Source: Bolinopsis microptera (taxonomy: Eukaryota; Ctenophora; Tentaculata; Lobata; Bolinopsidae). From it: a DNA stretch of 64,000 nt. The translations under genes were made by a program, and so were the position numbers. The notes under the pieces are model-generated. The model saw nothing but the letters and a program-made list of their open reading frames with translations. It made no database searches and was not told the origin of the DNA. Each line of letters opens with the position of its first letter. Positions within the stretch are counted from its first letter, which is position 1. Shown here piece by piece: positions 22,238 to 55,465 of the stretch. The stretch covers positions 2,609,246-2,673,245 of the forward strand of contig NC_087081.1 of the NCBI RefSeq assembly GCF_026151205.1. The letters run 5' to 3'.

Positions 22238-23251
22238 TTAATATGTCGAATGCCTAACACCAACATTCCTGAAATAATTTGGTCCATGACCCTTTGTGAT
22301 GTCATATCCATGTTCGATAGCATCGACAACTGACATTGGTAAAGGTCCTACATTTAATGCATCCATGTTGGAAACCAAATTTGCAATACTACTACTCCCA
22401 ACTATGATCCCATCATCGTTATCATCTGACAGAGCAGAGTGATGAACCAACCACCTTAAAGCCGCAGAGTGAACAGCCACCTCCTCCTTTTGGCATTCCT
22501 CCTGGATAATCTCAAGAGCGTCAAAGTATTTTCCCCGCCAGAAGCGATCTCTGTAAGAAGGGCCCCAGGAACTTCCAGTAAACCTTCCCAGCTCAGTTTT
22601 ATCCTGAGGTCGGTCATCTCGGCTGTGCTTGCCAGTTAGAATGCCTCCAGCAAGTGGGTTGTAGCAGTAGAAGCTCATTCCATATCTTCTTAGACATGGC
22701 AGCAATTCTGTCTCAACCATTCTAGTGAGGCAGTTGTACATTCCTTGGTATACTGAAGGTGTCATATAGCCATTGTGTTTACAGATCTGTTGAACCTCTG
22801 TGATTTGCCACGAGATAAAATTGGACAATCCAAACCTCTTGAATTTTCCCTCGTTGTAGAGTTTGTTTATTTCACTCAAGGTATCTTCAATGTCGACATC
22901 CATGCATGGCCAGTGCAAATAGAAGATATCCACCTGCTCAGCATTAAGGTTTATCAGAGAAGTTTCCAATTGGTGTCGAACACTTTCAGGAGAAAATGTC
23001 TTACCACCACCAGGATTAGCCTTGGTTGATATATTTGAACCATGGGCAGTGTTCATTTTACCCAGGTACATTTCTGTGAGACCCCCAGTTGTCCCGCCAC
23101 CGCCCTCACTGGCGTACATATACGCTGAATCAAGTTGGCTGTGGCCATATTCTTGAAACTTTCTAAGAAATTCTGTGCTCTCCTCTAGGTTCATGCGTCT
23201 ACCCATTTCCATTGTACCCAGTACAATTCTTGAGACAGAGCTTCTCGACAT
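22238..23251 (-). CDS. AKR7-type aldo-keto reductase, paralogue A
   Basis: Cytosolic NADPH-dependent aldehyde reductase of the AKR7 family (aflatoxin B1 aldehyde reductase type), about 337 residues from the chosen Met. I prefer the Met of MSRSSVSRIVLGTMEMG. It aligns with the start of the paralogue, and the upstream Met at 23284 is preceded and followed by splice-acceptor-like sequence (tctgtgcag). The catalytic tetrad is visible: Asp41 and Tyr46 in LDSAYMY, Lys77 in STKANP, and His113 in FYLHWP. The cofactor-end motif IIVGSSSIANL and the YQGMYN and YNPLAGG boxes are family signatures. The coding region is uninterrupted. It is tandem with paralogue B on the same strand. Physiological substrates cannot be read from the sequence. 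Confidence 0.93.
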   Translation of the reverse strand: MSRSSVSRIVLGTMEMGRRMNLEESTEFLRKFQEYGHSQLDSAYMYASEGGGGTTGGLTEMYLGKMNTAHGSNISTKANPGGGKTFSPESVRHQLETSLINLNAEQVDIFYLHWPCMDVDIEDTLSEINKLYNEGKFKRFGLSNFISWQITEVQQICKHNGYMTPSVYQGMYNCLTRMVETELLPCLRRYGMSFYCYNPLAGGILTGKHSRDDRPQDKTELGRFTGSSWGPSYRDRFWRGKYFDALEIIQEECQKEEVAVHSAALRWLVHHSALSDDNDDGIIVGSSSIANLVSNMDALNVGPLPMSVVDAIEHGYDITKGHGPNYFRNVGVRHSTY

Positions 23252-23553
23252 TTTCAGCAGCTGCACAGAATCTTTGGTAAACATAACGTAGCGTTAAAAT
23301 ATTCGTTTCAATAAAATTTTTATGATCAGTGAGTTGAGCAATTTGAATAGTGGTGAAACTCAAAACACTAAATCTACTGGAATGTGTATGAACATTTTCC
23401 TAGCTTCAAATTTGCTAACAATCACTTGCAAACTATTATTTAAGGAAAAAATAATACACCCGGCAATAAAACATCAAAGATTAGGAAAAAATAATATTTT
23501 TACAAATTTTCAGCTAAAAATAGAATATAAAACAATGGCATAGCAATAGCATC

Positions 23554-24308: not shown

Positions 24309-25319
24309 TCATACAGCATGTGGCATGCTGACGTTTCTAAAATAGTTGGGACCATGGCCTTTTGTTAGCTCATACCCCTGCTCAATAGCATCAACAACCG
24401 AAACTGGAAGTGGTCCCTCTTTCAAAAAATCAAGATTACAAACCAAATGAGAGATATTACTTGCACCCACAATAATAGCATCATGATTGTCTCCTGATAA
24501 AGCAGAGTGGTGTGTGACCCACCTCAATGCTGCAGATGTTACAGCAACTCCTTCCTTTTTACAGGCATCTTGTATGATATCAAGAGCATCAAAATACTTA
24601 TCTCTCCAGAATCTATCTCTGTAAGCTTTTCCCCATGCCTTTCCTGCAAATCTTCCTGGTTCACTCACATCCTCTGGATTGTCATCTCTAATGTGTTTAC
24701 CTGTAAGTAAACCACCAGCCAGAGGATTGTAGCAATAGAAGCTCATTCCATACTTTTGAAGACACGGGAACAGTTCTTTTTCTACCAACCTTGTGAGACA
24801 GTTGTACATTCCTTGATATACAGTTGGTTGAATGTACCCATTGTGTATGCAGATTTGCTGAACTTCAGCCACTTGCCATGATATGAAATTAGACAGACCG
24901 AATCTCTGGAATTTCCCTTCCTTGTGGAGATTGTTGACTTCGCAAAGAGTATCCTCGATATTAACATCCATGCAGGGCCAATGTAAATAGAACAAATCAA
25001 CACACTCAGTATTTAACTTTTTCATAGATGTCTCAAGTTGATGCCTGACACTTTTCGGAGACAAAGTCTTGCCACCAGCAGGATTCACTTTTGTAGCAAC
25101 ATTTGAACCATTTACAGTATCAATTTTACCCATAAACTCCTCAGTGAGTCCCCCATTTGCACCTCCATCTGCTCCACCAGCATACATGTATGCCGTGTCT
25201 AATTCAGTATGCCCATACTCTTGAAACTTTTTGAGAAAGGCTTCACTTTCTTCAAAGTTCATCCGTTTTCCCATCTCCATGGTTCCAAGAGCAACCCTAG
25301 TTACTGCTGATCTTGACAT
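24309..25319 (-). CDS. AKR7-type aldo-keto reductase, paralogue B
   Basis: A 336-residue AKR7-family reductase, closely similar to paralogue A along its whole length and in tandem with it. The tetrad residues are present in LDTAYMY, ATKVNP and FYLHWP. YQGMYNCLTRLVEKELFPCL, YNPLAGGLLTGKH and IIVGASNISHL are conserved. The start MSRSAVTRVALG lies 5 nt after a good splice-acceptor sequence (ttaattccag), suggesting an intron in the 5' UTR and otherwise an intronless coding region. The pair probably arose by local duplication. Both copies keep catalytic residues, so neither looks like a pseudogene. Confidence 0.93.
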   Translation of the reverse strand: MSRSAVTRVALGTMEMGKRMNFEESEAFLKKFQEYGHTELDTAYMYAGGADGGANGGLTEEFMGKIDTVNGSNVATKVNPAGGKTLSPKSVRHQLETSMKKLNTECVDLFYLHWPCMDVNIEDTLCEVNNLHKEGKFQRFGLSNFISWQVAEVQQICIHNGYIQPTVYQGMYNCLTRLVEKELFPCLQKYGMSFYCYNPLAGGLLTGKHIRDDNPEDVSEPGRFAGKAWGKAYRDRFWRDKYFDALDIIQDACKKEGVAVTSAALRWVTHHSALSGDNHDAIIVGASNISHLVCNLDFLKEGPLPVSVVDAIEQGYELTKGHGPNYFRNVSMPHAV

Positions 25320-32646: not shown

Positions 32647-35600
32647 GATTCCGATCCATGCTCTCATGATGTCACCGGCTTCGAATGCGTTAAGTGTGAT
32701 GGTCCCTGTGAAAAATGGTATCATACTAAGTGTTGTATGCACAAAAAAACTTTCGAAAAACTTGGGCAACACTCAGAAGTAATGTGGGTATGTAAGAATT
32801 GTAAGGCCCTAGAGAAGAAACCGGCTAAGCTAGTTAAAGTAGTTAAATGGGGAAATTATGCTTCTTTAAGTGAGATATCCAATGCTGCTGATTTAGCCTA
32901 CAGTGAAATTATGAAATGGACCAAGAACATGTTCCTAGTGCCACGGGGCAAAGTGGGCAACGCCTTCATTTTTGAAGTAAGCAGATTACTCAACCTGTTT
33001 AATGACAAGACAGAATGGGAGAGTATAGCGTTGAGATTACTATTTATCTTCATTCCTATGATGCTGCAAAAACCATCTAAAAACTCTCGTGCAAAGGATC
33101 ACAACATCTATCTTGATAAAAGGCTCAAGTTATGGAAAGTTGGGGACTTGAACGCTATAATCAGTGAAGGGTGTGAGATTCAGAAACGACTTGAAGAAAC
33201 ACGTAAAGCCCAGGAGAGATCCCTTGCTACCAAGTTTGCACAGCTCATGATCCATGGCAAAGTCTCAGCAGCAACCAGTCTCATAAATCGTCAAAGTGGT
33301 GGACTGTTGGATGTTGATGAAACGGTTATTGGACAGCTAAAGGAAAAGCATCCCTCTGCTATGAATGCAGCAGATGAAATTTTGATCACAGGTAACAAAG
33401 TGGCAGTCGAAGAAGTTATCTTTGAAGCCATCGATTCAATGTTAGTGAAAAAGGCTGCTAAGCTGACATCAGGATCAGGTGGACCAACACTAGTAGATTC
33501 AGAGTGCTGGCAGCACATCCTGTGTTGTAGTGCATTTAGTAAATCCCAAGAGCTTGTCGCTGAAGCAATTGCCAGATTAGCCAGGCGTGTATGTACTGAA
33601 GATGTAGATTTCAAATCAATAGCAGTGCTCACAGCTGGTAGGCTTGTCCCCTTAGATAAATGTCCAGGCCTAAGACCAATTGGTATTGGTGAGATCCTGA
33701 GACGGATTATTGGGAAGTGTGTGATGATGGTATTAAAAAAAGATGTTCAGAAGAATGCTGGACCACTTCAAACATGTGCAGGCCATGAAGGGGGGATCGA
33801 GGCAGCAATACATGCTGTGGCAGAGGTGCACGATGATGAGGACACGGAAGCCATTTTGTTAGTGGATGCTTCCAACGCATTCAACGCTCTCAATAGGACT
33901 GCTGCTACCAACAACATGCAGTATGTTTGCCCACCACTTGCTAAATATTTTGAGAACACCTACAGAGAACCAACAGACCTTTATGTGGCAAACAGCAAGG
34001 GAGTGATCATCAAGAGCTGCGAAGGTTTCACTCAAGGAGACAATATTGCCACTGGTGGATATGCTCTTAGCACCAAGCCACTTGTCGACCGCCTGAGAAA
34101 CATCATCAAACAGGTGTGGTTTGCCGATGATAGTGCTGCTGGAGGGAAATTGGAGGCAGTGTATAAGTGGTGGAAGGAGTTGCTCCAAGTTGGACCTAAG
34201 TATGGTTATTTTCCTAACCCATCTAAAAGCATTCTAGTCGTGAAGGACCCTCAGATGATCGACCAGGCCAAGGCATTGTTTGGAGAGTTCAATATGCAAA
34301 TAACATCAGGCACAAGGCATCTTGGTGCAGTACTTGGCAATACAGGTGTCAAAGATCAGTACATTGCCGATAAGGTCCAAGGGTGGTGCGAAGACATCAA
34401 GATGCTAGCTGATATTGCAGAATCTGAGCCATCTAAAAGCATTCTAGTCGTGAAGGACCCTCAGATGATCGACCAGGCCAAGGCATTGTTTGGAGAGTTC
34501 AATATGCAAATAACATCAGGCACAAGGCATCTTGGTGCAGTACTTGGCAATACAGGTGTCAAAGATCAGTACATTGCCGATAAGGTCCAAGGGTGGTGCG
34601 AAGACATCAAGATGCTAGCTGATATTGCAGAATCTGAGCCTCAAGCAGCCTATTCAGCCTACATCTCTGGCATACAACACCGATGGAAGTTTGTTCAAAG
34701 GACTGTTCCTCATATCTCTGAAGCCATGGAGCCGCTAGAACATGAAATAAGACAAAAGCTTCTGCCAAAGATGCTGGGCAGGGAGATTTCAGACTTAGAG
34801 AGGGACGTGTTAAGTCTACCAATAAGATTGGGAGGATTGGGCATTGGTAAACCCCACGAGGAATGCCAGTCTGAGTACACAGCTTCCAAGCTACTCACCA
34901 CCGAGCTTACAAAGGCAATAGTGGACCAACAGGAAGTTTACACTGCATCCAGTAACCTCACCAAATCAGGGAAAGAAATGATAAAAAATTTGAAGAATTC
35001 CGAGCTCCAAGCCAAGTTTAACGCTATAGCTGAAAGATGTGGCACCTCCTCTAAGAGAGCACTACTAACAGCAAGAGAAAAGGGAGCGTCCAGTTGGCTT
35101 AACACATTGCCACTTCATCAGTATGGCTACACTCTAAACAAAGAGGAGTTTCGAGACAGTGTCTGCTTACGCTACAGTTGGTGGATACCAAACACTCCCA
35201 TCACCTGTGGATGTGGGAAAACAAGTGATCTTGACCACCTTCTCACCTGTAAGCTAGGGGGCTACGTGATAATGACCCACAACAACATCAGAGACACAAT
35301 GGCAAATCTACTTCGTGAGGTATGTCATGATGTAAAAGTTGAACCCCAGCTACAGAAGGTGAATGAGGGTGACTGCCTCAACCCCAAGACTATAACAGGT
35401 GACCAAGCTCGGCTTGATGTATCTGCTAGAGGAGTTTGGACTCCATTTGATAAGACCTTTCTTGACATAAGGGTTTCACACCCCAATTGCTTATCAAACA
35501 GGACAAAAACTCTTCAAGAAGTATACGAAGAGAACGAGAAAGAGAAGAAGGACGAGTACTTGGAGAGAGTGTTGAATGTGGAGAAGGCTACCTTCACCCC

Positions 35601-35859
35601 GGCTGTATTCCTCACATCTGGAGGAATGTCTAAAGAGTGTAAGCAGTTCGTCAACAGAGTAGCAGACCTCATTGCAAGAAAAAGGAAGGAAAGGTACTGC
35701 GATGTAGTAAGACACGTGAGAACTAGGATAAGATTTGCAATGTTGAGAACAACTCTTATTGCTCTACGAGGGTACCGAGGAAAGAAGGTGGACACCAAAC
35801 GTGAGATTCAGCTATCAGAAGTTTCATACAACCTCATCCCTGCCCCTATAATGGAGTAG
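32647..35859 (+). CDS. PHD-RT-restriction-like endonuclease element ORF
   Basis: The frame is open for about 1070 codons from the TAA at 32644-32646. It starts in the middle of a PHD-like zinc finger (CVKCDGPCEKWYHTKC to WVCKNC), so the first Met at 32737 is probably not the true start and the element is 5'-truncated. The RT domain shows LLVDASNAFNALNR (motif A Asp), a TQGDNIATGGYAL box and VWFADDSAAGG (catalytic Asp pair). The C-terminal part has a zinc-type CGCGKTSDLDHLLTCKLGG segment. A PD-(D/E)XK-like ARLDVSARGVW...FDKTFLDIRV segment follows, as in elements with a restriction-like endonuclease. I do not have a confident clade name. A perfect 210-bp in-frame duplication (34219-34428 and 34429-34638) repeats 70 residues just after the RT core and may disable the thumb. 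Confidence 0.85.
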   Translation, partial: DSDPCSHDVTGFECVKCDGPCEKWYHTKCCMHKKTFEKLGQHSEVMWVCKNCKALEKKPAKLVKVVKWGNYASLSEISNAADLAYSEIMKWTKNMFLVPRGKVGNAFIFEVSRLLNLFNDKTEWESIALRLLFIFIPMMLQKPSKNSRAKDHNIYLDKRLKLWKVGDLNAIISEGCEIQKRLEETRKAQERSLATKFAQLMIHGKVSAATSLINRQSGGLLDVDETVIGQLKEKHPSAMNAADEILITGNKVAVEEVIFEAIDSMLVKKAAKLTSGSGGPTLVDSECWQHILCCSAFSKSQELVAEAIARLARRVCTEDVDFKSIAVLTAGRLVPLDKCPGLRPIGIGEILRRIIGKCVMMVLKKDVQKNAGPLQTCAGHEGGIEAAIHAVAEVHDDEDTEAILLVDASNAFNALNRTAATNNMQYVCPPLAKYFENTYREPTDLYVANSKGVIIKSCEGFTQGDNIATGGYALSTKPLVDRLRNIIKQVWFADDSAAGGKLEAVYKWWKELLQVGPKYGYFPNPSKSILVVKDPQMIDQAKALFGEFNMQITSGTRHLGAVLGNTGVKDQYIADKVQGWCEDIKMLADIAESEPSKSILVVKDPQMIDQAKALFGEFNMQITSGTRHLGAVLGNTGVKDQYIADKVQGWCEDIKMLADIAESEPQAAYSAYISGIQHRWKFVQRTVPHISEAMEPLEHEIRQKLLPKMLGREISDLERDVLSLPIRLGGLGIGKPHEECQSEYTASKLLTTELTKAIVDQQEVYTASSNLTKSGKEMIKNLKNSELQAKFNAIAERCGTSSKRALLTAREKGASSWLNTLPLHQYGYTLNKEEFRDSVCLRYSWWIPNTPITCGCGKTSDLDHLLTCKLGGYVIMTHNNIRDTMANLLREVCHDVKVEPQLQKVNEGDCLNPKTITGDQARLDVSARGVWTPFDKTFLDIRVSHPNCLSNRTKTLQEVYEENEKEKKDEYLERVLNVEKATFTPAVFLTSGGMSKECKQFVNRVADLIARKRKERYCDVVRHVRTRIRFAMLRTTLIALRGYRGKKVDTKREIQLSEVSYNLIPAPIME
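34219..34638 (+). repeat. Perfect 210-bp tandem duplication inside the RT ORF
   Basis: Two identical 210-bp units each encode the 70 residues from PSKSILVV to IAESE. The frame is preserved. Absence of differences indicates a very recent event or an assembly artefact. Confidence 0.95.
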
Positions 35860-36059
35860 ATCATGTGTTTTGTTAAAATGTTTTTGAAAAAATTATTAGT
35901 AGCAATGAATTGTGCTCTGCCAATTGCAACACTTAAAATTTGATTGTGCTCTGCCAATTGCATCACTTGATTTAATTGAATGTATATATATACTGTTTTA
36001 ATACTTTCAACACTACTATATAACAAATAATTTGAGTGTTCAGGAATGGTATGTTACAA
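35860..36059 (+). other. 3' region of the RLE-type element
   Basis: It contains a short tandem of tgtgctctgccaattgca at about 35910 and 35944. The boundary with the next LINE is at about 36050. Confidence 0.5.
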
Positions 36060-36239
36060 CTCCCCCGAAGGGGCGTACTAAGCTAAGGGTCATCTACATT
36101 CTACACTCTATTAGGGTCATCTACACTTTACTAGGGTCATCAACTCTGAAGTCCTAATCTCCTCCAAAACAAAACACTTAACGGGAGCCGACCCCAAGTC
36201 GGATCTATTTGGTCAGTATTACTTACATTTGATTTGAAA

Positions 36240-38378
36240 ATGGCGTCAAATTCTAGGAAGAATTCAGGTACTCCTAAAACATCTAATAGCTTGTCTCGCA
36301 ACATTTTAGCCGAATCTACAGTGGACAATGAAGATCAGGTAAACAGGAAACATAGGGACAAGAAGAAATGTCCATGTCAACGCTCTTTTAACGGTAAAGT
36401 TTACCTCATTGACTGTTCTAAGTGTCATCAAGAGTGGCATGTGGACTGCTTGTCTATGAAGGGTATAACGAGGTCAGCTATCAACTCCATGGTAGAATGG
36501 CTGTGCCCATACTGCTTCGTGGCACCAGTATCAACACTGAAGAAACAGAGAGACGAATTTTGTTACAGCTGCAGGAACACAAGGGCTTTGCAACAGGCCA
36601 ACTCAGATTTTGAAGCATCTACAGCTGTTAAGAATCTTGAAACTGTCAGTGCACTTGTGGCATCAGCAAGCTCAGCAGGCTCAGCTCTTGAAAAATTTGA
36701 CTTCGAACAGTTCTCTAGGAACCTTGACACTCTCTCCCAGTTCGACGTTCACCTTCAACACCTGCTCCTTAAAGAGAACTCCCTTAATGGCCTAAATAAT
36801 GAAATAAAGCTCCATGACAAATCATTAGAATCAATAAATACCAACATTGCTGAACTACAGAGGGACCTTAAACTTTTAGCATCTAGACCTTCCCCTGAAT
36901 CATCCCCATCTACAGACTCATCTGAGCAGTTTCTGAAGAGCATCTCAGAACAACTCACCGCACTTTCTGCAAATGAGCCCACTGTAGCTGCAGGCATTGC
37001 TGAACTAAAACAGTCTATAAGTTCTATACAGCCATTGCATAACCCTGGTCCTTGCATTCCTCCCAACCTACCTCCTGCACAGCATCCTCGTCCTCCAGCA
37101 CCACCTGTCCTTTTGCAGCCACCTCATCATGAGCAGAAACCTGTGGAACTGTTCAAAAACGATTTTATAGATCAGAAGACTGCGGAAGAACTAGTTGACC
37201 TATTTGATTTGAGCAGCACAGACTTCAAAATTGAAAACGAACGCTCCTGCCTATCATATGGGGAACGGTACGACTATCCTGGATCTAAGTCGTCCAAGAC
37301 ACCAAAGGCAATACCACCACCCTTGAGAAAACTCATCGACAGAATCAACAGTGAGTTTTGTTCAGGTGACCAACCTCAGGTTAACAGCTGTTTGGTGAAT
37401 CGGTTTGACGGCACAAGCAGCACCTTGCCTAGACACTCTGATAACGAGCCTTCTATCCACCCGGAATCAAGTATCTTTACAGTCTCTCTTGGTACTGCAT
37501 GTCATGTTTCTTTCTCTGATGCTAGTACAGGTATTGATGAGCACAAGCAACTATGTGGCCCAGGATCATTACATTTAATGACTCGTCGTAGCCAAGCACT
37601 GTTCCACCATCGTATCGATGCAGGCGAGATAACTGGGCTGCGCTACAGTATAACATTGAGATCAGTCAGTTCCCTGAATAGAAACGCTACATGTATCATT
37701 GGGGACTCGAACACCGGCGGACTGAAATTCGGTTCTGATCCTGCCAAGTCATTCGGCAAATGGCTTCCTGGAAAACGATTCTTTGCCCCAACTGTCGATA
37801 GCATTGATCCTTATGTGTCCTGTGGCTATAGAAACTGTGTTATATTGTGTGGGGTTAATGACCTGAAACAAACAGATGTAAAAAGCCAAAACGATATTGA
37901 TATAATCTACAACCATCTAGTTTCAAAAATTGCCCAGATTCAATCTATTAATCCGGGTGTGCATGTATATGTTTGTCCAACAATTCCTTCTAAACGTGCT
38001 GATTTAAATAGAAAGCTTATATACTTTAACAGTTTGATTCGATGTAGGCTGCTCCCGTCCAATTTTGGTGTCAGTTATGTGGATGGATTTGATGAGTTCT
38101 GTGATAGGGATGGTCTCCTTGACCGCTCTCTCTCTCGCGACCTCAACAAATACCAAAAACCGGACTTCCTTCACCTCAACTGGAGGGGATTAGCAAAGTT
38201 AGGTCAATTTATTCGTAACACTGTTCTTCTCAGGATTAACGGTGGTATCGACAAAAGGAAGAGGAGGTCCACAAGGGTAGACGATAGATCCTACAGGGAT
38301 GCGACTGCTGGAAGAGAAACTGGTCCTGTTGTTCCTGCTGCTGCTAGTCAGGGTCACGTGGATGGTTACCAACCATGA
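36240..38378 (+). CDS. LINE ORF1: PHD, coiled-coil, AlkB-like dioxygenase, SGNH esterase
   Basis: 712 residues from ATG at 36240. Residues 44-92 form a PHD-type zinc finger (C44, C46, C59, C62, H67, C70, C89, C92). Residues about 150-265 are heptad-like, followed by a Pro-rich linker (268-300). Residues about 300-478 match AlkB/ALKBH2-3 dioxygenases: LVNRFDG, then the HxD iron ligands H399 and D401 in RHSDNEPS. The third ligand is H457 in LFHHRI, and the 2-oxoglutarate-binding Arg pair R468 and R474 lies in LRYSITLR. Residues about 483-665 are an SGNH hydrolase: GDSN (Ser490), GVND (Asn540) and DFLHLN (Asp642, His645). PHD and esterase domains are known in CR1-type ORF1 proteins. An AlkB-type domain there is new to me. 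Inferred role: RNP formation and protection or editing of element RNA. Confidence 0.88.
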   Translation: MASNSRKNSGTPKTSNSLSRNILAESTVDNEDQVNRKHRDKKKCPCQRSFNGKVYLIDCSKCHQEWHVDCLSMKGITRSAINSMVEWLCPYCFVAPVSTLKKQRDEFCYSCRNTRALQQANSDFEASTAVKNLETVSALVASASSAGSALEKFDFEQFSRNLDTLSQFDVHLQHLLLKENSLNGLNNEIKLHDKSLESINTNIAELQRDLKLLASRPSPESSPSTDSSEQFLKSISEQLTALSANEPTVAAGIAELKQSISSIQPLHNPGPCIPPNLPPAQHPRPPAPPVLLQPPHHEQKPVELFKNDFIDQKTAEELVDLFDLSSTDFKIENERSCLSYGERYDYPGSKSSKTPKAIPPPLRKLIDRINSEFCSGDQPQVNSCLVNRFDGTSSTLPRHSDNEPSIHPESSIFTVSLGTACHVSFSDASTGIDEHKQLCGPGSLHLMTRRSQALFHHRIDAGEITGLRYSITLRSVSSLNRNATCIIGDSNTGGLKFGSDPAKSFGKWLPGKRFFAPTVDSIDPYVSCGYRNCVILCGVNDLKQTDVKSQNDIDIIYNHLVSKIAQIQSINPGVHVYVCPTIPSKRADLNRKLIYFNSLIRCRLLPSNFGVSYVDGFDEFCDRDGLLDRSLSRDLNKYQKPDFLHLNWRGLAKLGQFIRNTVLLRINGGIDKRKRRSTRVDDRSYRDATAGRETGPVVPAAASQGHVDGYQP
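38375..38378 (+). promoter_or_regulatory. ATGA stop-start overlap between ORF1 and ORF2
   Basis: The ORF2 ATG (38375-38377) shares bases with the ORF1 TGA (38376-38378). Such overlaps in LINEs can drive ORF2 translation by reinitiation. Confidence 0.8.
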
Positions 38379-41300
38379 CTCCCCTCATTAAGGAGGTATG
38401 TCCTGTCTGTTCTAAGAACATAGTCATCGGCCAAACAATAGTTGAATGTTTTCACTGTGACTGCATAATGCACCATAAATGCTATCGCAAATCAAATCCA
38501 AATAGCCAATCTAATGAGTTTTACTGTACTCGTTGTATCCATTTAGACAAGGTTAAATACAACCCATTTAAACTACTCACTGACAATGACGACGACGACA
38601 ACAACCTAGACGAATACACAACCAAAATCTCAAATACTTTAAATGATTGTAACTCATACACTGCATCTGACCTTACAAATATTCTCTGCAACCAAGTAAA
38701 GAAACAATCATCTATTCTCTTTCAAAATATTGATGGAAATAAATCAAATTTTGACAACCTTGCCATTGAAACCTGTAGGTACAAAACAAAATTCTCCGTA
38801 ATAGCCCTAGCTGAAACCAACACTGGAAAAGAATTAAGCAATCTATTTCAGCTCGACGGTTATAATAGTTACTATCAGGACACAGCACCTAACAAAAAAA
38901 AGGGCACTGGAGTAGCCCTTTATGTTGACGATAAATTAAATGCTACTGTAATTGAGAATATATCACAAGTCACAGAACATCTAGAAATACTTGTCTTATC
39001 ATTAAGTAACGAAGATCAACCTGTTAATGTAGGTGTTTTGTATCGTCCACCAAGTGGCTGTATTTCCCAAGCTCTAGTTGAACTTTCTAACCTTCTTGAT
39101 CACATGCCGAAGTTTAGTTATCTAGCTGGAGACTTTAATATCGATCTTCATGATAAAGATAACAAAAATGTTCAAAAATATGAAGAAATATTATTCAGTA
39201 AAGGATTTTGTCCGTTAATATCTATTGTTACCCACGAAAAACCAGGCTGTAAAGCATCCTGCATAGATAACATTATTACTAACGATATTGAGAATGTGAT
39301 TACTTCAGGCACCCTAAAAGAACGAATAACTCATCACTCACCTATTTTTAACACATTTAACTGGAATGTTGAAGTCAACTCTGAAAAAACTTCTTTTAAA
39401 CAATATTACGACTTCTGTCAATCAAATGTTAACGGCTTCCTAGTGGATCTTGAAGATGAGCTTAAAACTAAAACAATCCATAACTTTACTGAATTCCATG
39501 ACACTTACAAAAACTGCGTCGAAAAATCGTTTAAACTAGAGACCCCGAAAACCTCTAAGAGAACTGTTCAGGTTAACCCTTGGATAACTCCCGGTCTCAT
39601 TTGCTCAATTAATAATCAGCATAAACTGTACGAAAATTGGGTTGAGATAAGAAATAGAAAATGTAAACTCGGGGAAACTGATAACAAGGGCGGCATTTGC
39701 CAGTGCCCTGAATGCTCACTAAAACGTAGTCGCTACCTTATCTACAAAGAATACAGAAAAGTCCTAAAGAAAACACGTCAAACTGTGAAAACAGAATACT
39801 TCTCTGGTAAATTTGCTGAAAATAGCGGTGATAGTAAAAAGACCTGGGAACTAATAAATCGTATAAGAGGTAAACGGCGGCGTGAAATAAAGCCGCTGTT
39901 CACCATAGACAACGTTAAGATAACAAATAGAAGGATCATAGCAAACGAATTCAATAAATATTTTGTATCATTAGCCTCTGACCTAAATACCGCTTACAAT
40001 GATCTTGGACAGATTAACATAAACAGTATACCTAGTTTCTATGATTATCTACCGCTTTCAAACACTTCCAGCATTTACATGCATGACTGCACAACAGACG
40101 AGGTTAGCAAAATCATATCTGAACTTAAAAATGGCAAGGCAAGTGACATACCGATTCATGTAATTAAGCAGTCCTCTAAAATAGTTACTCCTTTACTCAC
40201 TGTACTGTATAACGAATGTATGAAAGATGGCATATTTCCAGATGACCTTAAAGTTGGAAGGATTAGTCCCATTTACAAGAAAGATAACCAGGAACTCCTT
40301 GAAAACTATAGACCTGTATCAACGCTAGCTGTGTTTGGTAAAATATTTGAAAAGATTATATTCAATAGATTATACAGCTTCTTTCATTCACAGAACTCCT
40401 TATATGAAAACCAGTACGGATTCCGTAAAAATCACTCGACCAGTTATGCCCTAAATTACTCAGTGAACCACGTAGAATCTTGCCTCAAGAAAAAACAACA
40501 CGTTCTTGGAATATTTATTGATCTTAGTAAAGCCTTTGATACAATATCACATGAAAAGTTACTGCATAAGTTAGAAAATTATGGAATCCGTGGAAATGCA
40601 AATAACCTTATAGCAAGTTACCTGTCGAACAGATACCAGTATGTCTCGGTATTAGGTGAAGAATCCGAGAAACTTCCAGTAGTCTATGGAGTGCCGCAGG
40701 GGAGCTGTCTTGGTCCCTTACTTTTTATTATTTATATTAATGACATCCGTAACTCATCAATTATAGGAAAGTTTATACTATTTGCCGACGACACTAACAT
40801 ATTTATAGAAGACACATGTGTCAAAAGACTATACGAAAAAGGAAATGAAGTTCTATCATTTGTGTACAAGTATATGAAACTAAACTTATTACATATTAAC
40901 ATTAAGAAATGTTGTTTTATTCATTTTAAACCCTCACGGGCCAAAGAGGAAGTAGAAAATGACGAGAACATACTAACTTTAAATAATGTAGTTATTAAAA
41001 GAGTTCAAGAAGCTAAATTTCTAGGCGTTATTATTGACGACCAACTTAACTGGAAATCACATACGCAGTCACTTAACTCAAAACTTAAATGCGAAGTAGG
41101 AAAGCTGTGCAGAATACGACACATTGTCCCAAAGCAGTATTATAAGGATTTATATCATACTCTATTTGAATCACATTTAGGATTTGGAATATCTGTGTGG
41201 GGTGGTATTAGCAATAACCGACTTGAACCTATCTTTAAAACACAGAAAAAGTGTATAAGAATTCTGTTTGGGGATAGAGAAGCTTACCTAGAGAAGTTTA

Positions 41301-41728
41301 AAACGTGTGCCCGAACACGGCCTGTTGATAAGCAAAGACTGGGGGTGGACTTTTACCAAAAAGAACACTCCAAGCCCTTGTTTAAAACCCACAGGTTGTT
41401 GACGGTCCACAATCTGTACAAGTACACTTGTCTCTTAGAACTATTCAAAATTAATAAGTTAGAGGAACCATTATCACTGTACTCATCATTTAACAGGTCA
41501 CCACGACGAGAGGATTATTTCATTACATCACAACCATCCTCACAATTCATCTACCAATCATCCTACATGTGGAACAGCTGTCGACAAACATCAAGTAAGA
41601 TAAGTTTTAATACTCCGACAAACGGGTTTAAGAATATATTGAAAATTGCCTTACGAGAATTGCAATTCAAGCATGATACACTTGATTGGTGTGAGCTTAA
41701 TTTTGCCACAAATGAGCTCAAGTTCTGA
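38375..41728 (+). CDS. LINE ORF2: PHD, APE endonuclease, reverse transcriptase
   Basis: 1117 residues. The start codon overlaps the ORF1 stop (ATGA at 38375-38378), indicating coupled termination-reinitiation. A zinc finger at residues 9-54 (C9, C12, C25, C28, H33 or H34, C36, C51, C54) is PHD-like. The APE endonuclease follows (LFQNIDGNKSNF, ALAETNTG, YLAGDFNIDL, CIDNIITND, THHSPIF). The RT has LGIFIDLSKAFDTI, YGVPQGSCLGPLLF (about residue 775) and LFADDTNIF (Asp pair about 805-806). The C-terminal region contains CIRILFGD and KTCARTRP, shared with several truncated copies in the window. All catalytic motifs look intact. Confidence 0.95.
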   Translation: MTPLIKEVCPVCSKNIVIGQTIVECFHCDCIMHHKCYRKSNPNSQSNEFYCTRCIHLDKVKYNPFKLLTDNDDDDNNLDEYTTKISNTLNDCNSYTASDLTNILCNQVKKQSSILFQNIDGNKSNFDNLAIETCRYKTKFSVIALAETNTGKELSNLFQLDGYNSYYQDTAPNKKKGTGVALYVDDKLNATVIENISQVTEHLEILVLSLSNEDQPVNVGVLYRPPSGCISQALVELSNLLDHMPKFSYLAGDFNIDLHDKDNKNVQKYEEILFSKGFCPLISIVTHEKPGCKASCIDNIITNDIENVITSGTLKERITHHSPIFNTFNWNVEVNSEKTSFKQYYDFCQSNVNGFLVDLEDELKTKTIHNFTEFHDTYKNCVEKSFKLETPKTSKRTVQVNPWITPGLICSINNQHKLYENWVEIRNRKCKLGETDNKGGICQCPECSLKRSRYLIYKEYRKVLKKTRQTVKTEYFSGKFAENSGDSKKTWELINRIRGKRRREIKPLFTIDNVKITNRRIIANEFNKYFVSLASDLNTAYNDLGQININSIPSFYDYLPLSNTSSIYMHDCTTDEVSKIISELKNGKASDIPIHVIKQSSKIVTPLLTVLYNECMKDGIFPDDLKVGRISPIYKKDNQELLENYRPVSTLAVFGKIFEKIIFNRLYSFFHSQNSLYENQYGFRKNHSTSYALNYSVNHVESCLKKKQHVLGIFIDLSKAFDTISHEKLLHKLENYGIRGNANNLIASYLSNRYQYVSVLGEESEKLPVVYGVPQGSCLGPLLFIIYINDIRNSSIIGKFILFADDTNIFIEDTCVKRLYEKGNEVLSFVYKYMKLNLLHINIKKCCFIHFKPSRAKEEVENDENILTLNNVVIKRVQEAKFLGVIIDDQLNWKSHTQSLNSKLKCEVGKLCRIRHIVPKQYYKDLYHTLFESHLGFGISVWGGISNNRLEPIFKTQKKCIRILFGDREAYLEKFKTCARTRPVDKQRLGVDFYQKEHSKPLFKTHRLLTVHNLYKYTCLLELFKINKLEEPLSLYSSFNRSPRREDYFITSQPSSQFIYQSSYMWNSCRQTSSKISFNTPTNGFKNILKIALRELQFKHDTLDWCELNFATNELKF

Positions 41729-42717
41729 TTTATGTGAGTTACTAAAATGACCATATATCTTTTCTCATACATATAACCACTGCACTCCAACCAAAAACAT
41801 TACTTACACCATACTCCACAAATGATATATATATATATATATATACACAAACACACTAGTACCGAGCAATCGCACTGTAAAACATGCTCACGATACACTC
41901 AAAATTGGAAATATTCAACGGCTTGTATATGAAACTTACACTTACACTCAGTGTACACCCAGTGTTAACTAGTATTACACACTGGTAAATTCTACGTAAC
42001 GCGCGAAAATAATAATTCTATGGCGTTTTCATTGTCACATTTCACGTCGACGGGATTAAACGCGCGCGCGCGTAACATCTTATCTTACTGCTATCTCAAC
42101 GAATAAACACACAACGACTTTGACAATTGACCGACGACTTAACGATTGTGAGTTATGACGGACTTAACTGCAGTATGGGTCAACTACTAAAACTGCATTG
42201 TATACTATCTTAATCATTATACTGGACATGAGATGACGAAGTATCTTGAGCAGCACTTTATACCTCCACTTAGAACTTGATTAGTCACGAACAATAGAAT
42301 CATTATAAATCAATACAATAAAACATCTTGATCAATAAATGCCTAGCAGCACCAGACAGCAGCCGTGTACCTTTCTCGACTCCACGGAGTCCCTGATGGA
42401 CTTTTGTTTACTTTTGTTAATAATTTGACCGCAACCTTTCTTTCTCGAAACACAAATCCTACTGTACTTCATTACAGTATTAAGATAATATAAAGCAAAT
42501 CATGTGAATATATGACTACGAAATAGATCTATAGACTTGTCCATAATATTTAATACCGTATTGATGGTTTTGAATTTTGTATATTGAATTTTAATGTGAA
42601 GCGTTTACTCTTCCCCCTCGGCAATTAATTAGAAAGTTAGATTAATGACAATAATTGCCAAATGACGTAGTAGATATAGATCTTCAATGTTGTAGAGTGA
42701 TTTCAAGAGTAGTGGTC

Positions 42718-42762
42718 CACAGGGGCCCGAAAAAGCCGTACAGGCACTTGGGTCCTTATCCT
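42718..42762 (+). repeat. Recurrent LINE 3' UTR motif, copy 2
   Basis: An aggggcccgaaaaagcc...caggcacttgggtcc block about 990 nt after the ORF2 stop. It is homologous to the blocks at 5452 and 50234. Confidence 0.6.
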
Positions 42763-43842
42763 TGTCACTAGTCCCAATTGGATTCACTCTACACAAAACA
42801 TGAACGTTTACAATTTAGACGTACACATTGGCACGATATTTATTAGAAAGCAAACAGTATAAAATAATACGTGCGTGCGCGGCTTGAGCCGCGCCGCATA
42901 ACAATTTATGCGTTTAGGGGCTGGAGTACGCGTGTTTACAGATTAATGAATTGTTGCATGTGCATTGTAAATATTTAAAGTTGACGATATATTATGATTT
43001 AATAGTAAATTTTTCAAAGCTGGCTTTGGACTTAGGTAAAATTATAATTTATTTATTTAAAAGAAAAAACCACGGATAGTTTTAAATTTACATAGTCGTA
43101 TAACTATAATCAAGTTAATCCTGTTTTCAAGAATGCGCGGCTTTGGCGGCCAGTTATTGACTTGTACATAAAATTGAATTTTAAATAGAAATGTGAATGT
43201 ATTAAAATTTAAAACTTTCAAAACGGAGGCTTATAAATATTATTATATTATGATTGTAAAATAAAGGATAAAATTTTAAATTTGTTTCACTAAAAATTTG
43301 TTTCACTGTTTGACACACATTTATAAAAAAAAAAACAAATTTATTATTTACAATTGTTTTTAAAATATTATAATTGTATGTTTATTGTGAAATAATTTAC
43401 GGTTTTTAACCTAAAAACAATTTATTCTTGAATTAATTCGTATGAAAATTAATCTTTGCCAAAAATTAACCTTTTTGCATCACAGTGGATTGATTCACAA
43501 TCGCAATACAATGTCAATCCTTTGCAGCTCGGCGAGACCCAGTGTGCAGTGGTGAATTTCGCCTTCACCTAACCATGTGCTTTCGCGCCCATGCGGGCGC
43601 GCTCAAGAAAACAACAATTTTATTTAGTTTCAATTAGAGCAAACATATATTTTATATATAACTAGCAGGACCTTTTTTCACGTGTAAGGAAAAGGTGGCC
43701 AGAGGCGGGCACACGCTACTGCAAGGGCTCTGGATAGAGCAACATCTCGCCGATCTATGGATGATGATTAATCACTCTACACTCGACTGTCACGTGACTT
43801 TTTCAACACGTTTTCTAGCTGGCTCTGAACGACTATTCGAAA

Positions 43843-51974: not shown

Positions 51975-54900
51975 TTCTTATTATTTCAATTATCTAATCT
52001 GTTTATATTTTAGCAATGTTTATGAGATCTACCCAGTGGTAAGTTTGTGAGTTTAAGTATTTAATTGTTTACTCACACCTTTTCGTTCGTTTGATTTCAC
52101 CCTGCTAATTGTTATGGATTCATTTATATGATTTATATGTTTTATATGTTTGATATATTTTCCTTTCAGATTGTTTATCATCATCAAGTCGTTTTATTCC
52201 AATAACATATCACACATTTATGGAAGTTTTTAAAATACTAAAACTACTTAGGATGGTGTGTGACTGTAACGGGTCCGCATGACTGCCAAAGTCAGTACGT
52301 TTAACGCCTCGAGGAAGATTGCAGGATTCCTAGTCTACGCTACTCTTTTCATCATGGCTACGACACTCAATTTTGGGACATGGAATGTTTGCGGTCTATC
52401 GACCACATACAGGCAACACTTTGTTGCAGAGGACATTGACAGATATAACTTAGACATTTTAGCACTTCAGGAGACCAAGACACGTGAATACTTGGAAACA
52501 ACACTCCCTGGACATCATCGATTGTTTTTGTTTGATCAGAGACACGATAGACACGGTGGACTTGGGTTTATTGTTAACAAGCGTTTTTTGGAATGTATAG
52601 TATCGCATCATCAGATCAGTGACAGAGTTGTTTATATGGACTTTAAATTAAGTGCTAAAAGGGTGGATCAACCACCTTGTCATATCAGAATTGTTAATTG
52701 TTACAGCCCTACGAATCCCAAGTCAGTTCAGAACCCCCGATTAGCAACCCAATTTTACGATGAGCTACTCGAGGCTATCAGTGTTCCTGCTAGATTTGAA
52801 GTATGGATGTTAGGCGACTTTAATGCCAAACTTGGCAAAAGAAGCCCTGTTGATGTAGAAAATGGTTTACATGTGAATATTGGTAGACATGGTGTTGGGA
52901 GGAGGAATGAAAATGGTGAAAGGTTGCTACACTTTCTCACTGCTAATGGCCTGTTTGCTGCCAACACTTCATTCTCCCATAGCAGCAGACACATTACCAC
53001 ACGGACTGGTTGGATTCGGGATCGAGCAACCAGGAAAAGTAAACCTTATTTCCAACAGATTGACTTCATACTCTGCAAGTCCAGAAGCAAGGCACTGCTA
53101 ACTGATGCCAGGTCATATGCAGGTACAAAGCACCGCAGTGACCACAAACTTGTTGTTGCCAAGGCAGATTTTTCGCAGCGCTTCAAGTTGTACCAGGAGA
53201 GCAGAGCATTTCAAAAGACTTATAACACAACAACCTTGATTGGAAGCAAACAAGCTCAACAACAATATCAGCAAGAACTTCGTCAGAAACTTGAGCAAAC
53301 TGTATCAGATCCTGACTTTACCTCCAACAACACAGAACAGCAATTTGATATGCTTTTTGGTGAAGTTAAAGAAGCTGCTGTTTCCACTGTGGGTTTTCGC
53401 GAGCCACAGCGAAAGAGGAATCATTCCTCTGACAGTCAAGTTGTTAGCATGTCTGAAGAAAGGAAACAACTTTTACAACAACTGAACAACAACGAATACA
53501 GAGACAGGACAGCTCTCAGAGCTAAAATCAACAGGCTCTCAAACGACATTACTAAACGTTTAAAAACATTGAGAGTTGAGTTAGCAAACAGCCTAGCTGA
53601 CTCAATAGCCACCATAGACGAAGGACGGAGAATGTTTGAAGCTGCTCGTCAACTATCAGGCAAACAGAAAACGGGTGCAGGCTCTGTGTCTGTTTTCAAC
53701 ACTGACAACCAACTGGTAGATAATGAACGAGACAAGGCTGAAATCATTCGCCAGTACTTCGAAGAACACTACACTGGACCTGACAGTGAACCACCACTAG
53801 AACCGTTCACAGGTAACCCTAGGCCCCTTCAAACCCCCATTACAGCGTTTGAAGTTGAGCTTGCGGCCAAGAAACTCAAGAACGGTAAAGCTGTTGGACC
53901 AGATGGGATCCCAAACGAATTTCTCAAACACTCTCCTGAAATCTTTTTTTCCACATTTGCACAACTTACTAATCGATCCTTTGAGCTCCATGAACATGTA
54001 CCTTCTTTCACAGAGGGATACCTTACTCCGCTCCAAAAACCTGGAAAGCCACTAGGCCCCCCTAAGAGTTTGCGCCCACTTTGCCTACTAAACGGTACTA
54101 GAAAGATATTGTCCATGATAGTCTTGAAGCGCATCCAAAGGCAAGTATCTCAGTACACTGGTCCTTGGCAGAATGCCTATAAACCTGGCCATAGTTGTGC
54201 GAATATCGTTTGGACCCAGCGAATACTAGTGTCAGTTGTCAAGGAAAAACGCTGGTCTCTTCATAAGATGGGCATTGACATGTCCTCTGCTTTTGATACC
54301 ATAAAGAGGTCGGTATTACTTGACATTTTAGCTGATGCTGGTTGTAGTGAGGACGACATTCGACTGGTAAGGTATTTGCTCGCAAATACTAAACTGAAGA
54401 TCAAAGTGAACTCAACAATATCGGGAGAGTTTATTGTCACGATTGGAGCTTTTCAAGGCGACAGTTTGTCTGGAAACTTGTTCACTCTATATCTGGCAGC
54501 AGCACTTTACCACCTGCGTGCTGTTATGTCCTATCTAAGACCTAACCCTCCCATAGCTGAAAATCTGTTACCCCTCGAGTGGGAGTATGCAGATGATGCT
54601 GATTTTACTGATGAGGATAAAAGCAACTTGGAGACTTTGTTGCCAATATGTAAAGAGATATTGGAAGAGTGGAATCTTTTTGTCAATGAGTCAAAAACCG
54701 AGTTCACCCACTTCTATCTGGCCGGCAAGAACGAGGTTGATGACAAAGGAGAGAAACTCAGAGGTAGAGAACCTTGGAGGTCATCTATCTCTTTAGGCTC
54801 TAAGTTGTGTAGCATCGAAGATGTCAAGAGACGATGTATACTTGCTAACATTGCTTTTCAGAACTACAAAAAAGTCTGGGAACAAGGTAGACGTATACCC

Positions 54901-55465
54901 TTGAAGATTCGACTCAAGATATATGAAGCACAAGTTGTTTCAATACTGATGTATAATTGCAACAGTTGGGCAACATCTAAACAACTCCTTCAAAAACTTG
55001 ATGTCTGCCACAGGAATCATCTCCGTACGATCATCGGCATGACCTACCCTAATGTCATACGAAATGTGACTCTATACAAACGCTGCGAAGTTGTTCCACT
55101 AAGTGAGCGTGTTGCTCGTGCACGGTGGAGAATGCTCGGTCACATCCTCCGCAGTGATAATAACTCACCTGCCCAGCTTGCCTTACATTTTGCTGTAGAG
55201 AGTCAGAGTTTGATGAGAGGTAGAGTCGGACGACACCAGTCAAACTTGTTAAAAACTATTTTGAACGATTTAAGTGACAGAAACTTTAGACTTGTAAATA
55301 CAGACGATTTATACCATTTAAGAATTTTTGCAACAGATAGAAAAGCATGGAGAGAGTTAAGCATGATTTAGTCTATCCTGTGTTATTTTTCTCTTGGTGA
55401 CTTATCAGGTCATCAAGATGTTCTTTATGTTCTATTTTTGATTTGAATAAAGTTATATAATATAA
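51972..55465 (+). mobile_element. Single-ORF APE-type LINE nested in the CR1 fragment
   Basis: About 300 bp of 5' UTR, one intact ORF (52279-55371) and a short 3' UTR ending in an AT-rich aataaagttatataatataataaa tail. The host CR1 tail is split between 51974 and 55466, which fixes the limits approximately. No ORF1 is visible. Confidence 0.8.
52279..55371 (+). CDS. APE endonuclease-reverse transcriptase of single-ORF LINE
   Basis: 1030 residues from ATG at 52279; an internal Met (MATTLNFGTWNV) is an alternative start. The endonuclease has FGTWNVCGLS, LALQETKT, WMLGDFNAKLG, QQIDFILC and RSDHKLV. The RT has NGKAVGPDGIPNEFLK, MGIDMSSAFDTI, GAFQGDSLSGNLF and WEYADDADF (catalytic Asp pair). The C-terminus has MYNCNSWATSKQLL, RWRMLGHILRSD and a Leu-rich end. 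All motifs are intact and there is no ORF1. The architecture resembles RTE-type elements; clade assignment needs a tree. Confidence 0.93.
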   Translation: MTAKVSTFNASRKIAGFLVYATLFIMATTLNFGTWNVCGLSTTYRQHFVAEDIDRYNLDILALQETKTREYLETTLPGHHRLFLFDQRHDRHGGLGFIVNKRFLECIVSHHQISDRVVYMDFKLSAKRVDQPPCHIRIVNCYSPTNPKSVQNPRLATQFYDELLEAISVPARFEVWMLGDFNAKLGKRSPVDVENGLHVNIGRHGVGRRNENGERLLHFLTANGLFAANTSFSHSSRHITTRTGWIRDRATRKSKPYFQQIDFILCKSRSKALLTDARSYAGTKHRSDHKLVVAKADFSQRFKLYQESRAFQKTYNTTTLIGSKQAQQQYQQELRQKLEQTVSDPDFTSNNTEQQFDMLFGEVKEAAVSTVGFREPQRKRNHSSDSQVVSMSEERKQLLQQLNNNEYRDRTALRAKINRLSNDITKRLKTLRVELANSLADSIATIDEGRRMFEAARQLSGKQKTGAGSVSVFNTDNQLVDNERDKAEIIRQYFEEHYTGPDSEPPLEPFTGNPRPLQTPITAFEVELAAKKLKNGKAVGPDGIPNEFLKHSPEIFFSTFAQLTNRSFELHEHVPSFTEGYLTPLQKPGKPLGPPKSLRPLCLLNGTRKILSMIVLKRIQRQVSQYTGPWQNAYKPGHSCANIVWTQRILVSVVKEKRWSLHKMGIDMSSAFDTIKRSVLLDILADAGCSEDDIRLVRYLLANTKLKIKVNSTISGEFIVTIGAFQGDSLSGNLFTLYLAAALYHLRAVMSYLRPNPPIAENLLPLEWEYADDADFTDEDKSNLETLLPICKEILEEWNLFVNESKTEFTHFYLAGKNEVDDKGEKLRGREPWRSSISLGSKLCSIEDVKRRCILANIAFQNYKKVWEQGRRIPLKIRLKIYEAQVVSILMYNCNSWATSKQLLQKLDVCHRNHLRTIIGMTYPNVIRNVTLYKRCEVVPLSERVARARWRMLGHILRSDNNSPAQLALHFAVESQSLMRGRVGRHQSNLLKTILNDLSDRNFRLVNTDDLYHLRIFATDRKAWRELSMI

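Follow-up and report, generated by a model that had tools for sequence, protein, structure and literature searches.

The window analysed here, a stretch of 64,000 nucleotides from Bolinopsis microptera, raises the question of whether a LINE can carry a dioxygenase of the AlkB type inside its ORF1 protein and, if so, what such an enzyme would do for the element. A sequence-only reading of the window had located an AlkB domain resembling ALKBH2/3 at 37140-37680 (approximately residues 301-480), between a PHD finger and an esterase. The element that contains it is organized as follows:

35994..43307, + strand: whole LINE copy, about 7.3 kb, delimited by BLASTN ends common to other copies and by the 5' and 3' junctions
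36240..38378, + strand: ORF1, 712 aa from its ATG, an open frame covered by 34- and 56-row alignments
38375..41728, + strand: ORF2, 1117 aa, with Cys/His finger, endonuclease and reverse transcriptase, its start overlapping the ORF1 stop in an ATGA
38795..39286, + strand: EEP (APE-like) endonuclease domain of ORF2 (PF03372, 1.8e-4, slightly below the cut-off)
40277..41035, + strand: reverse transcriptase (RT) domain of ORF2 (PF00078, 2e-36)
43278..43307, + strand: 3' end with two AAATTTGTTTCACT units and no poly-A, as read at the junctions of eight copies, including that of the window

The ends of the LINE are common, by BLASTN, to five other copies at approximately 99% identity, and two sister-family copies at approximately 90% identity have them as well. 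The 5' end lies at about 35994 if the copy is complete, and the 3' end at 43291 or 43307, as seen in five copies traced to their end. At 11 other places, the 5' sides of family-A copies start within the element, between 36042 and 36847, in six cases and at 35994-36001 in the remaining five, one of which has an inner deletion. The 3' terminus consists of at least one AAATTTGTTTCACT unit without poly-A. A family-B copy was found inserted within a family-A copy, the two flanks of the latter overlapping by 4 nt, indicating that the target duplication is short. Among 20 copies from several families, picked for their long frames, the ORF1 frame reaches at least 645 aa in all, and the ORF2 frame exceeds 1000 aa in 13. 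With an EEP endonuclease and a reverse transcriptase in ORF2, 5'-truncated copies and a common 3' end, the element is a LINE of the APE type. The 3' tandem repeats, the PHD finger and the esterase suggest CR1/L2 (Jockey superfamily) as the candidate clade. The start of ORF2 (38390-38539, +) has a Cys/His finger of its own with weak PHD, C1 and RING matches, resembling in this the PHD reported at the beginning of ORF2 in some L2 elements.

An ORF of 1040 aa that weakly matches RT (32737-35859, +) ends about 135 bp before the LINE; it contains an internal 210-bp tandem duplication (34214-34633) and has no match to the ORF2 of the LINE. An RT frame 49% identical to that ORF2 lies at 57783-60338 (-), a relative without an ORF1 here and with no AlkB in the window, and two further LINE ORF2s (52279-55371, +, and 60367-63180, -) show approximately 26% RT identity and no AlkB match in the window. 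An LTR-type polyprotein with protease, RT, RNase H and integrase occupies 13406-17176 (+), and an adjacent pair of aldo/keto reductase genes occupies 22238-23284 (-) and 24309-25319 (-). Approximately 1.4 kb past the window end, an AlkB-bearing LINE of a divergent family is found (L027, G000 C10:2674657).

ORF1 is composed of four parts:

36369..36515, + strand: PHD-like zinc finger, aa 44-92 (PF00628, E 8.8e-4, below the cut-off; profile against the DIDO1 PHD, 3.3e-5)
36564..37025, + strand: long helices, probable coiled coil, aa 109-262 (AlphaFold model, moderate confidence)
37119..37673, + strand: AlkB-type 2OG/Fe(II) dioxygenase domain, aa 294-478 (PF13532, 6.3e-15; model and fold searches)
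37434..37448, + strand: H399-S-D401-N-E403, the HxD iron ligands and the invariant Glu (invariant in 56 rows)
37608..37610, + strand: H457, the third iron ligand (invariant in 56 rows)
37641..37661, + strand: R468-x-S-x-T-x-R474, the RxxxxxR motif (R468, S470, T472 and R474 invariant in 56 rows)
37677..38237, + strand: SGNH/GDSL esterase domain, aa 480-666

The order PHD, coiled coil, AlkB and SGNH esterase had been read correctly from the letters, the coiled coil being predicted. The identity of the two flanking domains stands on profiles and relatives, while in the window copy itself the Pfam matches of both the PHD (8.8e-4) and the GDSL domain (5.4e-6) are below the cut-off. A Pfam match to the PHD-like finger is found in 22 of 56 ORF1 proteins, and its Cys/His pattern in 18 of 21 ORF1s of the same genome, being absent from L022, L023 and L028; the profile (A6) was built from 14 of these 21. 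In the alignment, the Trp that forms part of the H3K4me3 cage in PHD fingers seems to be replaced. The SGNH profile matches the solved LINE ORF1 chain 4c1b at 5.1e-4, and the domain pieces give a PF13472 match in 17 of 21 cases, the full proteins in 28 of 56 (E <=0.01). Across the 56 rows S490 and N540 are invariant, and D642 and H645 are conserved in at least 90%. With this catalytic Ser, Asp and His (S490, D642, H645), the match to 4c1b and a predicted coiled coil, ORF1 is of the esterase type (type IV).

For the AlkB domain, PF13532 (2OG-FeII_Oxy_2) scores 56.3 bits in ORF1 against a cut-off of 31.2 (E 6.3e-15), and it matches 53 of the 56 aligned ORF1s at E <=0.01. A profile built from 21 copies of the same genome matches human ALKBH2 (1.2e-12) and ALKBH3 (1.1e-10) in the PDB, the AlkB-family matches at E <=10 being ALKBH2, 3, 8, 6 and AlkB; ALKBH5 and FTO are absent from these matches, an absence that does not exclude either. 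The domain placement proposed from the letters is confirmed with slightly different borders, given that by structure it spans 294-478 (37119-37673), and the numbering of H399, D401, H457, R468 and R474 is correct when counted from the ATG at 36240, with E403 now read as well. That reading had made its claim depend on a fold match and on conserved ligands. The predicted ORF1 model has the AlkB double-stranded beta-helix fold by Foldseek and VIA matches, and the ligands are conserved in related copies in both the 34- and the 56-row alignments. Human ALKBH2 and ALKBH3 are the best matches by fold and by profile, so that the likeness to these enzymes holds on both counts. The HxD...H and RxxxxxR motifs and a Pfam score above the gathering cut-off show, at the level of sequence, that the domain belongs to the AlkB family, and its beta-helix fold is predicted. 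The second Arg of RxxxxxR is described as characteristic of AlkB (PMC544882). A chance match is ruled out by the Pfam score, the PDB profile matches and the fold matches. No AlkB profile match besides ORF1 was found in the six-frame translation of the window (open frames of at least 40 aa, E <=1).

The Glu at H+4 (E403) and the Y344/Y346 pair align with those of the host ALKBH2. In ALKBH2, the Glu of HxDxE and the Y-x-F/Y residues belong to the base pocket. With E403 and Y346 invariant and Y344 conserved in at least 90%, the domain carries the residues of the ALKBH2/ALKBH3 subgroup. A mixed AlkB tree has long branches and no ALKBH3 among its rows, and it gives no resolved grouping with ALKBH2/3. 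Assignment to plain ALKBH5 is not supported by sequence, though ALKBH5 has the same fold.

Conservation extends well beyond the window. Across 56 ORF1 proteins, namely the window copy and 55 others that are 27-84% identical to it, H399, D401, E403, H457, R468, S470, T472, R474 and Y346 are invariant, and N387 and Y344 are conserved in at least 90%. This alignment (A3) combines the window copy with 12 copies out of 20 fetched and 43 out of 76 database proteins; alignment A2 has 13 of 16 database proteins, without the fragment P0003 or the two fused models, P0012 and P0015. The strict full motif is found in 83 of 95 related database proteins (P0001-P0095, with P0096-P0100 excluded). Five of the 12 failures (P0069, P0070, P0073, P0074 and P0093) keep HxDxE and RxSxTxR, and the other seven, mostly short pieces, are without one or both motifs. 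The named relatives (P0012, P0015, P0053 and P0065) are all from Mnemiopsis leidyi.

The dN/dS of the AlkB domain (NG86) is 0.13, 0.15, 0.08, 0.19, 0.20, 0.26 and 0.23 in the seven measurable pairs, with dS saturated in four of 11 pairs, a dS of 1.24 in the pair giving 0.13, and very few changes in the pairs giving 0.26 and 0.23. As estimated from these substitutions, the domain is shown to be under purifying selection. The identities of AlkB and RT co-vary (Spearman 0.83, Mantel 0/2000) in 17 of 21 rows, leaving out L027, whose RT match is to another element, and the partial L017, L018 and L025. The AlkB and RT trees have the same close groups, with deeper forks weak or different. Given this co-variation and these shared groups, the AlkB domain was most likely inherited vertically with its LINE. 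ORF1 is, moreover, a mosaic: when the window copy is compared with L010, dS is 0.03 for the PHD, but 0.44 for the coil, 1.24 for AlkB and 0.66 for SGNH, a pattern suggestive of exchange or recombination between LINE families. The possibility that the domain is a decayed insertion of a host ALKBH gene was rejected because, among the best 150 of 766 copies, 144 have the domain without a stop and 83 belong to frames 640 aa or longer, and because the host ALKBH2 is a separate place (L050, 2.2e-52 to human ALKBH2).

The genome searched comprises 264.65 Mb in 232 contigs. Three AlkB profile searches, covering the best 150 of 766, 587 and 730 candidates, respectively, pool to at least 376 distinct places, a count that takes in host genes such as ALKBH2 and in which a broken domain may score twice. 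Of 56 RT places whose ORF2 frame reaches 1100 aa or more, a listed AlkB lies 2.3-4.2 kb upstream in 39 and within 12 kb in 42; the AlkB list used here is the best 150 of 766, so that the rest may be truncated, unlisted or AlkB-free. The RT search covered 108 of its 6400 candidates, every one with at least 72% identity, so that related LINEs without AlkB lie beyond its reach. In a second LINE-like lineage (L046, G000 C2:17781600-17784400), which has many near-identical copies, ORF1 is shorter and contains AlkB (9e-19) as well as a GDSL match that is weak and below the cut-off (3.1e-4); an endonuclease ORF2 follows, whose RT part lies outside the stretch read. Among the best 149 of 1014 candidate endonuclease places of this type, AlkB precedes the endonuclease on the same strand by 0.8-3.5 kb in 88 and lies downstream in one, and none has AlkB on the opposite strand.

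The domain is also found in Helitrons. Of 41 Helitron_like_N matches, 28 were compared with the AlkB list (best 150 of 587), and six share one open frame of 2225-3388 aa with AlkB; for a seventh, AlkB lies 4.5 kb upstream and in a different frame, and the other 21 have no listed AlkB nearby. The six frames are the following:

G000 C10:16875843 with 16880070, C3:14441692, C12:8338315, C9:15868177, C12:2469580 and C9:11092850: AlkB-Helitron polyproteins with AlkB upstream of Helitron_like_N (L047, L049)

With Helitron_like_N in the frame of AlkB itself, these carriers are Helitrons. The one read in part has AlkB (L047, 3.1e-21; nearest PDB match ALKBH3, 5.1e-11) and a weak GDSL match (5.4e-6), followed by Helitron_like_N (L049, 2.1e-23). 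Beyond what the window showed, AlkB domains occur throughout the genome, in Helitrons as well as in two LINE-type lineages. The mixed AlkB tree does not tell one capture from several for the LINE and Helitron domains. A further frame class is seen at L048 (G000 C13:15025000-15027300), where AlkB is N-terminal in a long frame and followed by a helical-looking region.

Several known systems resemble this arrangement in part. The ORF1 of zebrafish ZfL2-1, of type IV CR1/L2, likewise has a coiled coil followed by an SGNH esterase (PMC3905857, PMC4120745), and PHD and esterase types of ORF1 are already published (same sources). AlkB or a dioxygenase is absent from these accounts of type IV CR1/L2 ORF1, with 0 occurrences in PMC4120745 and none listed for PMC3905857. 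TRAS and Jockey LINEs of insects have captured an enzymatic nucleic-acid domain in their ORFs, in Jockey in ORF1, the capture being a viral RNA helicase and not AlkB (PMC5563155). AlkB itself has been described before, from plant viruses (PMC544882) and from an LTR element (PMC9289625). The Ty3/Gypsy element reported in orchids (Phalaenopsis) encodes an AlkB-family domain with HxD...H intact, as a separate, ALKBH5-like extra ORF of an LTR element (PMC9289625), whereas here it lies inside ORF1 of LINEs and in Helitrons, is ALKBH2/3-like and occurs in many families. Positive-strand plant RNA viruses carry AlkB in the replication polyprotein, with single-stranded RNA and the same HxD/H/RxxxxxR (PMC544882), but their host and machinery differ from those of a LINE. 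A viral donor is conceivable but not supported: scanning viral contigs with a single pattern yielded no confirmed relative, but the fit of predicted viral AlkB structures to the model is about as good as that of ALKBH2 (best 1.2e-12, in another library). In fungi, 2OG/Fe(II) dioxygenases are likewise spread across unrelated DNA transposons, including some Helitrons, but these are TET/JBP and not AlkB, and no retrotransposon carrier was found in that study (PMC12730594). Human ALKBH2 and ALKBH3 have the same HxDxE and RxxxxxR, but are stand-alone cellular repair enzymes. No AlkB or dioxygenase in a LINE was found among the top-ranked open-licence literature, with RepBase notes and subscription papers outside this scope. 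A captured dioxygenase within a PHD/esterase-type ORF1 is a new architecture that adds to the five published types.

The AlkB domain of ORF1 may serve in the repair or unmarking of the element's RNA, as had been proposed from the letters. AlkB-type enzymes take methyls off the Watson-Crick face (m1A, m3C). We consider it somewhat probable that the domain, in which all residues for binding iron and 2-oxoglutarate are intact, is, as predicted, an active ALKBH2/3-like dioxygenase that would strip these methyls from single-stranded RNA or cDNA of the element itself, allowing its reverse transcriptase to read through. The ORF1 protein would package its RNA in cis, so that the enzyme would travel with its template, with the coiled coil as the predicted oligomerising part and the AlkB groove possibly doubling as the nucleic-acid-binding part. 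Both m1A and m3C interfere with common reverse transcriptases; in OTTR, where the enzyme is of the R2 type, copying is impeded by m1A and improves after treatment with AlkB, the changes being modest for whole tRNAs (PMC12140624). Structural RNA-binding domains are reported to be missing from those ORF1 proteins in RepBase that contain an esterase (PMC3905857), and the AlkB domain may therefore also hold the template. Given the blocking modifications, the ALKBH2-like residues and this possible role in holding the template, template repair within the RNP is favoured. In the Helitrons of the same genome, AlkB would answer the same need by guarding a single-stranded DNA intermediate.

The main rival, which we regard as rather unlikely, is that the enzyme removes host-placed marks, either m6A from the element's RNA or 6mA from donor or target DNA, and so evades silencing. 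The nearest retroelement precedent, the ALKBH5-like orchid domain, demethylates m6A in vitro (PMC9289625), and TET/JBP enzymes of fungal DNA transposons are proposed to act against methylation (PMC12730594). The PHD-like finger in 18 of 21 ORF1s of this genome is consistent with such a role, AlkB in Helitrons would fit a DNA mark, and ALKBH5 and FTO have the fold of the model. The PDB profile matches (E <=10) argue against it, as they comprise ALKBH2, 3, 8, 6 and AlkB without ALKBH5 or FTO, and so do the H+4 Glu and the Y-x-Y pair, which follow ALKBH2.

That the fold is kept for nucleic-acid binding, with catalysis irrelevant, would agree with its location where the missing structural RNA-binding domain of an esterase-type ORF1 could be expected (PMC3905857) and with the RNA binding retained by a catalytic mutant of the orchid protein (PMC9289625). 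Binding alone, however, needs neither the three iron ligands nor both arginines, which are invariant in the 56 rows, and the persistence of the strict motif in 83 of 95 related proteins, with both motifs kept in five of the other 12, makes this very improbable. Least likely of all is a protein hydroxylase (ALKBH7-like) or a tRNA wobble-base hydroxylase (ALKBH8-like), given that the conserved Y344/Y346 and E403 agree with those of ALKBH2.

Beyond template repair in this LINE, it is conceivable, though short of probable, that the ctenophore AlkB domain is a shared, esterase-adjacent self-repair accessory of elements that pass through a single strand, serving at least two LINE lineages in ORF1 as well as Helitrons in their transposase polyprotein. 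If true, this accessory would define a class of self-repairing transposons that keep their RNA or single-stranded DNA copyable. Little attention has gone to chemical damage to, or marks on, the RNA template of a retrotransposon as a barrier. A repair enzyme under purifying selection in a LINE ORF1, and present also in Helitrons, would show that nucleic-acid methylation limits transposition enough to be countered, and these natural pairs of enzyme and reverse transcriptase would offer a way to find out if LINEs are held back by m1A/m3C or by m6A.
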